37,957 nt of DNA from positions 1 through 37,957 of the IMG/VR virus record IMGVR_UViG_3300025093_000053; one strand, written 5' to 3'. Position 1 is the first letter of the stretch. Each line of letters opens with the position of its first letter. Of this stretch, positions 7,708 to 37,957 are shown piece after piece. The notes under the pieces are model-generated. The model had not been told where the DNA came from. It saw nothing but the letters and a program-made list of their open reading frames with translations, and ran no database searches. Made by a program: the position numbers and the translations under genes. The stretch comes from a virus.

Positions 7708-8978
7708 TGACACTAACAGAACTTAGTAATATATTTAATACTATAACTCAAAATATACCAGGTTTAAATTTTTATCATTTTGGTTTTCTTAGCGACATAA
7801 ACACCGCTATACAAAACAATTTTCAACCTTCTTTTGATTGTTCGGACCCTTACCCCCTGGTTATGTTTGAACCGCCGGCGGGATCATACCGCACACACGA
7901 TAGTAAAATTTTTCGGACTGTTAGATTGTTATTTGCAGACAGACAAGACAGCAATAAAAACGGTACTACTTGTGACACCTTAGCCGAAAAAATGAGCGAT
8001 TTAGAAAGTATAGCGCTTTCGTTTATGCGTACCCTTTACAGCTTAAAAATAGAAGGCGCTTGTTTGCAAAGCTCGCTAAGAAAACAGGAAGCCACCTTTA
8101 ATCTTGATGCTTACGCCTTTAATGATAGGTTAGTAACGTATGAACTTGCCTTTACACTTGTTACCCCTTATAGTACCGATTGTTTGGATTTGGATATAAC
8201 AACAATAGACCCGGAAGATATTGAAAATGTTAAATGTGATACGTTTTTAAATGAATATTCAATAAGTTACAATGGGATAGACCAATATATACAAGTCCCC
8301 GACAATAATTTATTAAGCTTTGGGGATGGGGCAACAGACACCGGAATGAGTATATCTATATGGATTAAAAGGCAAGGGACTGGAGTAACAGCGTTTTTAT
8401 TAAATAAAGGGACTGACGCCGGCGGCGGAATGGCTGCGAATAGTGAATATAGATTAAGCTTAAATAGTGCAGGTTTTTTATTTTTCTCTATTTTTTCAAA
8501 CTTGACAAATAATAATTATATACTAGGGAGTAGCACAATAGCGGTGCCGGGTAATACTTGGGTTCATATTGGTCTAACTTGGGACGGTTCAAGTATGAAA
8601 TATTATCTTAATGGGGTTTTACAGGCTTTTAATGTTTCTGAAGTCGGAACTTATGTAGCTATGCAAAACGGCCCCGGTAGCTTAACAATTGGTAAGCCTT
8701 GGGATGACCGTTTTTATTATTCCGGTTTCACAGATGAATTAACAATGTTCAATACTGCACTAAACGAATCGGAAATATTAGAACTGTACAACGGGGGGCA
8801 GCCTAATGACGTCACAACCCATTCAAAAGCCGCTTTTATTGTATACGGAAACCGTTTTGGTGATGGTGCAACTTTTGATAAAAACTGGGATTTTCCAGAC
8901 ATAAGCGGCAACGGTATTGCAAGCAATAGCGTAAACATGGAAGAAATAAACAGAACAACAGATATACCAACAGTATAA
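7707..8978 (+). CDS. Tail protein fused to a LamG/concanavalin-like lectin domain
   Basis: This 423-residue product has two parts. Residues 1-160 resemble small tail-completion or tail-terminator proteins in size and position, before an HK97-gp10-like gene. Residues about 185-370 form a LamG-like jelly roll: an opening SYNGIDQYIQVPD strand, SISIWIKR, the core motif WVHIGLTWDGSSMKYYLNG, and the closing FTDELTMFNTALNESEILELYN. LamG-3 domains of this pattern bind glycans or decorate virions. The fusion would place a carbohydrate-binding domain on each copy of a tail or neck protein. The lectin part is clear; the identity of the first part is inferred from context. Confidence 0.75.
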   Translation: MTLTELSNIFNTITQNIPGLNFYHFGFLSDINTAIQNNFQPSFDCSDPYPLVMFEPPAGSYRTHDSKIFRTVRLLFADRQDSNKNGTTCDTLAEKMSDLESIALSFMRTLYSLKIEGACLQSSLRKQEATFNLDAYAFNDRLVTYELAFTLVTPYSTDCLDLDITTIDPEDIENVKCDTFLNEYSISYNGIDQYIQVPDNNLLSFGDGATDTGMSISIWIKRQGTGVTAFLLNKGTDAGGGMAANSEYRLSLNSAGFLFFSIFSNLTNNNYILGSSTIAVPGNTWVHIGLTWDGSSMKYYLNGVLQAFNVSEVGTYVAMQNGPGSLTIGKPWDDRFYYSGFTDELTMFNTALNESEILELYNGGQPNDVTTHSKAAFIVYGNRFGDGATFDKNWDFPDISGNGIASNSVNMEEINRTTDIPTV

Positions 8979-36541: not shown

Positions 36542-37357
36542 TCATTTTTTGTGATGATCTTTGAAAAGGTGTTTATATTTTTCTATTTGCCGACTTCGTT
36601 CCTGTTCTATTTCCTCAGCACTTTTAAAACTTGGTTGGGTCTTAGGTTCACTAACTGTTTTAAATTTACTAAAAATTTGTTTCATTTGCTCAATCCCAGC
36701 CCTAGACCATTCGGTTTTCTCTAAGGCTTTTTTGTTATGGTGTTCCAAAAACTGTTTAGCCTCAGCAGCAGCCTCCCGTTGTTCATTGTAAAGGCTTAAC
36801 CACTCTAAAATATTAGCGCCATCAAAACGATCATAGCATTTACCAAAACGCCCCGCTTTTCCCCATTGAAAACATAGTTTAAAATCTGCAATAGTAAGAT
36901 AGTTATAGTTATCAATTATCAACAAGGCGGTTTCTAATGCCTCGTTTTTAGATAATTTACCACCTACTTTAAAAAAACTCGCAGTATGCAAGATTAAAGC
37001 GGTTAATATTGCGGCGGTGGTTCGTTCATCGTTGTATTTTGTCAACGTAGCAAGTGAGGGCGTGTTATTATCAAAAACCTGTTCAATACTTGAAACTCTA
37101 AAATGAGGGTTAACGCAAATACTCGCCCAATCCTCTAAACAAATTAGAGCCTTATCCGCTTCAAAGTTGCGCCCTAGCTTTTGCCATTTTTCAAGCTGTT
37201 CTAGTGGCATTTGAATTATTGCGGTTTTTTGTCCATCGGTCAAGGAACTCATTTGTAAGTGTTTCCGTGCCTGGCTTTCTAAGTAACTCAGTAATTTGTT
37301 TTGCAGTTTCTGCCTGTGTGTTATCGCTTCGGTTTTGTTTATTGGTGTTAGTTTCAT
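36542..37357 (-). CDS. DUF6633-like protein, probable replication partner
   Basis: The 271-residue maximum frame contains ALICLEDWASICVNPHFRVS, then a helical region with LTIADFKLCFQWGKAGRFGKCYDRFDGANILEWLSLYNEQR (split here at about residues 155-195), a pattern I associate with DUF6633-type proteins of Bacteroidota phages and plasmids, which often sit beside replication genes. The C-terminal third is Glu/Lys/Gln-rich and ends KHLFKDHHKK. It overlaps the initiator gene by 167 bases if ATG 37357 is used; Met36 (37252) or Met50 (37210) are alternative starts with smaller overlaps. It may load the helicase or act as a replication accessory, by analogy with lambda P, but this is not shown by sequence. 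Confidence 0.55.
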   Translation of the reverse strand: MKLTPINKTEAITHRQKLQNKLLSYLESQARKHLQMSSLTDGQKTAIIQMPLEQLEKWQKLGRNFEADKALICLEDWASICVNPHFRVSSIEQVFDNNTPSLATLTKYNDERTTAAILTALILHTASFFKVGGKLSKNEALETALLIIDNYNYLTIADFKLCFQWGKAGRFGKCYDRFDGANILEWLSLYNEQREAAAEAKQFLEHHNKKALEKTEWSRAGIEQMKQIFSKFKTVSEPKTQPSFKSAEEIEQERSRQIEKYKHLFKDHHKK

Positions 37358-37957
37358 CCTCTTTTATATTTTGCGTGTTGTAGTATTGATTTAAGTATTT
37401 TTCAAAGTTTTCAGGGCCAAAAAGAGTATCAGGGTTTAAAAATCTAGCCATTTTTTTACTTCCGCTCCATTCGTTTGTCTTGATGTCAATAACCTTTTGA
37501 AAGTCCATTATATCCGCCCCATTGTCTAATAAATGAACTATTTTAAGGCGGGGGCCGTACCGATCCATTGAGAATTTAGTTTTCTTTTCCCTGAATTGAT
37601 AATTGGCCTTAGCTTTTAAGTAATTCATTACCCGCATAACTTCAGGATAAAGGCGGCTTTCTGTTGCGGGTCGGTCTTTGTCTGTAAGTTTGCCGGCCTT
37701 TTCTTTTTTGGCGCAACTTTTTTCTTTTTCTTGATCCTGTTTCTGAATCTTAGAAAGAAGCTGTTGTTTTTCCTGTTCAAGTTCTTGAACCTGTTGTTTT
37801 AGCTTTTTTATTTCTGTGTGTGCTAAAGAAAGTTCTCTTTCTTTACTCTCTAATACTTCAATGTTTAATACTTCAATGTTTAATACTTCCCCTGTTCGTT
37901 TTGTTAGGGGGGTGGTGTTCGTTTTGTTAGGGGGGTGGTGTTCGTTTTGTGACCCTG
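37191..37957 (-). CDS. Replication initiator, C-terminal part (runs off the window)
   Basis: The leftward frame ending at 37191 is open to base 37957, with no start needed inside the window; the ATG at 37637 is internal. After the repeat-encoded linker and VLNIE repeats comes a coiled coil (about bases 37840-37700, Glu/Gln/Lys-rich). Then comes a Phg_2220_C-type domain: VMNYLKAKANYQFRE, IVHLLDNGADIMDFQKVIDIK, WSGSKKMARFLNPDTLFG, FEKYLNQYY. This domain is typical of phage replication proteins and follows a winged helix in complete family members. The winged helix is found at the other window end. A Thr/Asn/Gln-rich tail follows. Confidence 0.85.
   Translation of the reverse strand, partial: GSQNEHHPPNKTNTTPLTKRTGEVLNIEVLNIEVLESKERELSLAHTEIKKLKQQVQELEQEKQQLLSKIQKQDQEKEKSCAKKEKAGKLTDKDRPATESRLYPEVMRVMNYLKAKANYQFREKKTKFSMDRYGPRLKIVHLLDNGADIMDFQKVIDIKTNEWSGSKKMARFLNPDTLFGPENFEKYLNQYYNTQNIKEDETNTNKQNRSDNTQAETAKQITELLRKPGTETLTNEFLDRWTKNRNNSNATRTA
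37851..37889 (-). repeat. 15-bp tandem repeat encoding VLNIE
   Basis: Two and a half copies of TAATACTTCAATGTT lie between the G-rich repeats and the coiled coil. The period is a multiple of three, so the peptide VLNIE is repeated, unlike the adjacent G-rich units. Confidence 0.85.
37894..37950. repeat. 23-bp tandem repeats inside the replication gene, candidate origin iterons (right end)
   Basis: Two perfect 23-bp units (37894-37916 and 37917-37939) and an 11-base partial copy share the core GTTCGTTTTGTTAGGGGGG. They are clear relatives of the 19-bp repeats at 1-38. As 23 is not a multiple of three, the copies are translated in different frames (NEHHPPNK, NTTPLTK), so the DNA, not the peptide, is conserved. 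Confidence 0.8.

Follow-up and report, generated by a model that had tools for sequence, protein, structure and literature searches.

The initiator gene and the repeats at the record ends

The window analysed here is the complete viral record IMGVR_UViG_3300025093_000053, a stretch of 37,957 nucleotides whose two ends carry, on the minus strand, two open gene fragments that run off the record (Table 1). A winged helix of the HTH_36 type and a Phg_2220_C domain sit on these separate fragments. The PHROG matches of the winged-helix fragment were replication initiation families (best phrog_391, 6e-10; phrog_428, 6.2e-9) and, on the phrog_428 profile, this N-terminal half covers positions 117-182 while the C-terminal half covers positions 177-341. 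Since both halves match adjacent parts of the same profile, they very likely belong to one gene that was cut by the record ends. When compared with solved structures, the N-terminal domain gave only general winged-helix matches and a weak match to 2vn2, a chromosome replication initiation protein (E 0.07); a single-sequence structure model of the C-terminal half was poor (mean pLDDT 53.5), with a helix at residues 20-86.

Table 1. Coordinates of the features found around the junction of the record ends
Feature	Position	Strand	Evidence or remark
Initiator N-terminal half, winged helix HTH_36 ("DGECWPS" type), 102 aa, running off the record start	3..308	-	Pfam HTH_36 E 7.6e-11
Iteron 1, degenerate box (coding strand TAACAAAATA)	37..46	-	17 bp to next iteron
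Iteron 2, CAACAAAACG with C6 tract	20..29	-	19-bp unit
Iteron 3, CAACAAAACG	1..10	-	start of record
Iteron 4, TCACAAAACG	37943..37952	-	15+m bp from iteron 3
Iteron 5, TAACAAAACG with C6 tract	37920..37929	-	23-bp unit
Iteron 6, TAACAAAACG with C6 tract	37897..37906	-	23-bp unit, adjoins AT-rich array
AT-rich array of 15-bp direct repeats, 2.6 copies (AACATTGAAGTATTA on the coding strand); candidate unwinding element	37851..37889	-	TRF 100% match, score 78
Initiator C-terminal half, coiled coil and Phg_2220_C, 254 aa, running off the record end	37191..37955	-	Phg_2220_C E 1.5e-15, above cut-off; phrog_428 E 4.7e-17
Next gene in operon, phrog_35728, no assigned function	36542..37357	-	phrog_35728 E 3.2e-25

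Joining position 37957 directly to position 1 shifts the initiator frame by one base, so that the length m missing at the join must be 2 mod 3. The IMG/VR database classes the record as linear, meaning that end repeats were not detected, and this class together with the out-of-frame join indicates that bases are missing at the junction. We infer both circularity, the record being classed as linear, and a single intact initiator gene, the junction being unsequenced and its direct join out of frame. A preliminary description of this DNA, made by a model from the letters and open reading frames, had stated that the frame stays open through the repeats: this is true of each fragment, but across the join as given the frame is off by one base.

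The repeats themselves are G-rich on the plus strand and C-rich on the coding strand. Tandem repeats finder (TRF) detected a 23-bp repeat at 37893-37950 (2.5 copies, 100% match, score 116) and a 19-bp repeat at 1-37 (1.9 copies, 100% match, score 74), while 500 order-2 Markov shuffles of the 600-nt ends peaked at scores of 68 and 72; when the last 120 nt alone were shuffled, a score of 74 was reached 5 times and 116 never. These results bear out the 23-bp units at 37894-37939 and the 19-bp units at 1-38 that the preliminary description had reported, the observation that neither period is a multiple of three, and, through the Pfam and PHROG matches, their placement between a winged-helix half and a Phg_2220-type half. 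The array proved to be larger than described, however, with six iterons and not four: with the ends joined, the coding strand contains six boxes of the type TAACAAAACG at up to 2 mismatches, spaced by 17, 19, 15+m, 23 and 23 bp, and m = 2 would make the middle spacing 17. The iteron core CGTTTTGTT(A)GGGGGG is absent from the rest of the window at up to 2 mismatches. A second iteron array comparable to oriR of SPP1 was also considered and rejected, as the rest of the window contains just two matches with 3 mismatches and no array.

Because the 23-bp unit contains CCTAAC, one of its three phases has a TAA stop, and a run of the unit can stay open for no more than 66 nt (under three units); the run in the window measures 58 nt. 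In the 19-bp unit, where that T is absent, every frame is stop-free. The reading frame and the origin can thus constrain each other, with fewer than three such 23-bp units in tandem.

A 15-bp array that the preliminary description had missed adjoins iteron 6, the last in coding-strand order. Its GC content is 21%, versus 37% in the remainder of the initiator's C-terminal half, and its region falls in the 96-97th percentile of duplex instability within the window. It is the candidate for the unwinding element expected of an origin. The two G-rich arrays, their positions, their AT-rich partner and the protein families are direct observations.

Another tandem repeat of the window, with a 63-bp unit and 4.7 copies (1158-1452), lies in the ORF 1134-1676(-) and encodes leucine-rich-like units (LTSLDLSGL); the ORF 776-1132(-) is a shorter paralogue of that ORF.

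The gene that follows the initiator in the operon is, by its position only, a candidate partner, for example a helicase loader. In the phage collection it had no matches other than Bacteroides/Phocaeicola phages and a single faecal phage, it was matched in 5 of the 395 Bacteroidota genomes, and no relatives of it were found in viral contigs. In some Bacteroidota-linked loci (L278, L280, L281 and L282), phrog_35728 is adjacent to initiator-like genes whose hinges carry repeats. One of these, from a Bacteroidota genome (L282:3446-4459, minus strand), is a winged-helix initiator-like ORF with 22/24-bp in-gene repeats that lies upstream of the phrog_35728 gene as in the window, while L278, L280 and L281 have shorter repeats in ORFs neighbouring that gene. 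The terminase of the window is 48-49% identical to Riemerella phage terminases and 45-49% identical to those of Sphingobacterium and a Flavobacteriaceae genome. Judging from these identities and from downstream-gene matches that are mostly in Bacteroidota, the Bacteroidota host proposed in the preliminary description is likely. Some phage-collection records (hits H5, H63 and H97) have a host label at odds with their genes and may be mislabelled: Xanthomonas phage SU1 carries a Staphylococcus-type initiator, Shigella phage Henu10 a Riemerella-type terminase and Campylobacter phage CJLB-4 a 99% lambda O.

Hinge repeats and iteron spacing in related initiators

Relatives were collected separately for each domain. 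The C-domain set, made of 80 IMG/VR loci together with L005, 80alpha (L010) and Streptococcus phage Javan370 (L016), was reduced to 44 non-redundant genes, and a hinge repeat was counted when a tandem repeat scoring at least 50 was found within the 180 nt that precede the C domain. Such repeats were present in 33 of these 44 Phg_2220_C initiators, when codon-order shuffles of the hinge lead one to expect 0.6; outside the hinge, they were found in 0/44 genes in the first 180 nt (N domain) and in 1/44 in the C domain. Many of the hinges contain two arrays, the second being often AT-rich with periods of 12 or 15 bp. The N-domain set (80 loci, phage-collection loci and L003/L004) gave 31 non-redundant genes, among which 27 have repeats directly after the winged helix, none has them in the 200 nt before the end of the winged helix (within the wHTH), and one has them further down. 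A strong repeat is missing in the remaining 11 of the C-domain relatives and 4 of the N-domain relatives. The preliminary description had suggested looking in related phages for a conserved core: the repeats do recur at the hinge in both sets, but their sequences are unrelated between relatives, varying from gene to gene in the C-domain set.

A scan of genome contigs with the C-terminal half found no relatives, and Phg_2220_C was matched in 0 of the 395 Bacteroidota genomes sampled, indicating that close host-side relatives are lacking and that the combination seems uncommon in Bacteroidota. Another in-gene array was seen in a Bacteroidota phage, Riemerella phage vB_RanS_CRP6, where a hypothetical protein encoded directly upstream of the replicative helicase (L018:8497-9027) matches a DnaD-like helicase loader family and has 24-bp x3.3 repeats in its gene at 8630-8708.

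Several N-domain relatives have C-tract iterons, such as ACCCCCGCAGCAAATGC in phi2, of which CUB19 has a close variant. At least three ACCCC were found in 15 of the 31 N-domain relatives versus 4.2 expected from codon shuffles, an enrichment that is suggestive at most because the two sets differ in base composition, with GC-rich genomes in the N-domain set and AT-rich ones in the C-domain set. The idea that iteron sequence follows the N domain was consequently set aside, its C-tract excess being confounded by base composition, and the layout of the spacings is the stronger evidence.

In N-domain relatives, the spacings grow along the gene, the first being mostly 15-18 and the last mostly 21-23 (17 to 22). 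When these relatives were clustered at 50% identity, 13 of 14 clusters showed an increase and none a decrease (permutation P <1 in 5,000), on the one set in which the rule was both noticed and tested. A small but independent check was provided by lambda and 12 further lambda-O-type phages: 8 of the 11 scorable arrays increase and none decreases (20 to 24), and the spacings 20,24,24 / 20,24,23 / 19,24,23 / 19,23,24 recur despite differing iteron sequences. Just past the final iteron, the DNA has a higher AT content than the whole gene (P 8e-6). No spacing increase was found in the C-domain set (P 0.93). Loci with a short-then-long spacing in the two initiator families are L285-L296, L192 and L106-L191. 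Conservation of the layout in relatives and the short-then-long spacing are thus observed directly, and the window (17, 19, ?, 23, 23, with AT-rich DNA next) fits this layout.

The spacing rule is the most interesting part of the finding. The in-gene origins of at least two families (HTH_36 O-like and Phage_rep_O) may obey a spacing that does not depend on sequence, with about 17-20 bp far from the AT-rich DNA and about 21-24 bp beside it, and this step of 4-5 additional bases might place the proximal protomers so that strain enters the unwinding element; the window would then show the rule in a Phg_2220_C-type protein of a probable Bacteroidota phage. We regard this general proposition as evenly poised between right and wrong. 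It predicts that in-gene phage origins conserve iteron spacing and not iteron sequence, and that altering the spacing step with an unchanged protein sequence should impair melting. A statement of the rule was not found in the literature searched, which comprised papers available without subscription; the lambda spacings themselves were already annotated.

A candidate origin inside the initiator gene and its alternatives

We propose that the repeats at the record ends are very probably binding sites of the phage's own initiator, placed inside the initiator gene as in lambda; that these repeats and the AT-rich array together form a replication origin embedded in that gene appears highly probable to us. 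The winged helix at the N-terminus is the putative, and likely, iteron binder. In the proposed mechanism, it would bind the roughly six iterons of its own gene, and the bound iterons would be wrapped into a nucleoprotein complex. Strain would then be released in the adjoining downstream array of AT-rich 15-bp repeats, which would melt. The Phg_2220_C domain and a partner protein could then load the replicative helicase at the melted repeats, leading to theta replication. The models for each of these steps, from iteron binding through melting to the loading of the helicase, and for origin activity as well, are 80alpha, SPP1 and lambda. The lambda-O-style design that the preliminary description had put forward is supported by about 75 non-redundant relatives, by the placement of the AT-rich array, by 80alpha ORF20 and by the spacing shared with lambda-O phages. 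The GC-skew check that it had suggested gave no independent support: the skew changes sign near 5 kb and 28 kb, at the places where the genes switch orientation, and is therefore uninformative as an origin signal.

If the repeats were instead autoregulatory operator sites in the initiator's own gene, with replication starting elsewhere, binding alone would look identical, and repression of the operon to which they belong is common among winged-helix proteins. The repeats are nevertheless located mid-gene, away from any promoter position and with an AT-rich array adjoining, and the same layout exists in 80alpha, whose ORF20 is not complementable in trans, and in lambda, where the origin iterons are annotated at that place, which makes an operator role very unlikely. 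The variability of the hinge among relatives and the differences between their repeat sequences would suit a neutral minisatellite, expanded by slippage in a disordered linker and devoid of function at the DNA level. Slippage, however, predicts neither the recurrence of repeats at one and the same hinge across most of the relatives, with almost none elsewhere in the gene, nor the directional spacing rule seen in two families, and we hold this explanation to be most unlikely.

The linear class of the record and its out-of-frame direct join could also point to an assembly artefact, a chimera whose ends finish in unrelated repeats and whose gene halves come from different genomes. Against this, the iteron core is common to both ends and otherwise absent from the window, the two halves align to neighbouring stretches of a single family profile, and a short-read assembly would be expected to break inside a repeat array; we consider a chimera extremely unlikely. 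An origin embedded in the initiator gene, our preferred reading, would probably mean that the design of lambda, SPP1 and 80alpha also exists in a Bacteroidota phage, and supplies a defined candidate origin.

Comparison with known in-gene origins

Considering homology, the nearest functional model for the window is 80alpha ORF20 / SPP1 gp38, rather than lambda O. ORF20 matches phrog_428 at 6.9e-97 and the 80alpha record annotates a putative origin inside it; complementation of ORF20 in trans failed, which the authors of that work took as a sign of an embedded origin, who describe SPP1 gp38 as its homolog and lambda O as unrelated (PMC5499656). ORF20 and the window initiator are alike as replisome organizers of phrog_428 with Phg_2220_C and, very probably, the same domain order, and the ORF20 hinge contains, like that of the window, repeats followed by an AT-rich direct-repeat array. 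They differ in that the iteron sequences are unrelated and the host phylum is different, that the N domain of ORF20 is weakly HTH_36 (E 0.0098) when that of the window scores far better (E 7.6e-11), and that the next gene is a DnaC-type loader in 80alpha versus phrog_35728 in the window.

In SPP1, the direct repeats of oriL lie in gene 38 and are bound by gp38, with an AT-rich unwinding element adjoining (PMC6316719). Direct repeats and an AT-rich DUE (a candidate one in the window) placed within the initiator's own gene are common to gp38/oriL and the window, a likeness drawn from publications (PMC5499656, PMC6316719), whereas SPP1 has a second origin, oriR, elsewhere and no second core array was found in the window.

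The origin of lambda has the same order, iterons and then an AT-rich tract (PMC7466680, PMC3349717), and lambda O resembles the window initiator in its mid-gene iterons, four in number and spaced by 20, 24 and 23 bp. Lambda O is, however, a Phage_rep_O protein (PF04492, E 5.7e-36) and not an HTH_36/Phg_2220_C protein, and PF04492 was not among the matches of the window initiator halves at E up to 1, so that the window initiator appears to work like lambda O, yet is not a PF04492 member. A resemblance between the window and lambda iterons (shared CAAAACGA) was examined and discarded as not significant (P about 0.16-0.63 versus shuffles).

The O-like proteins of the Pseudomonas/Stenotrophomonas phages phi2, LPPA33 and CUB19 (phrog_391/678) share the N-domain type of the window, HTH_36 with a CWP motif, and have C-tract iterons after this domain, with spacings of 16-17 and then 21-23 bp. 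Unlike the window, they have a different C-terminal half (Phg_2220_C matched in 0 of the 3 scanned) and GC-rich genomes. In-gene repeats have also been noted in a related phage, MD8 (PMC8508860). The embedded-origin design itself is already known, and the window is very probably a further example of it.
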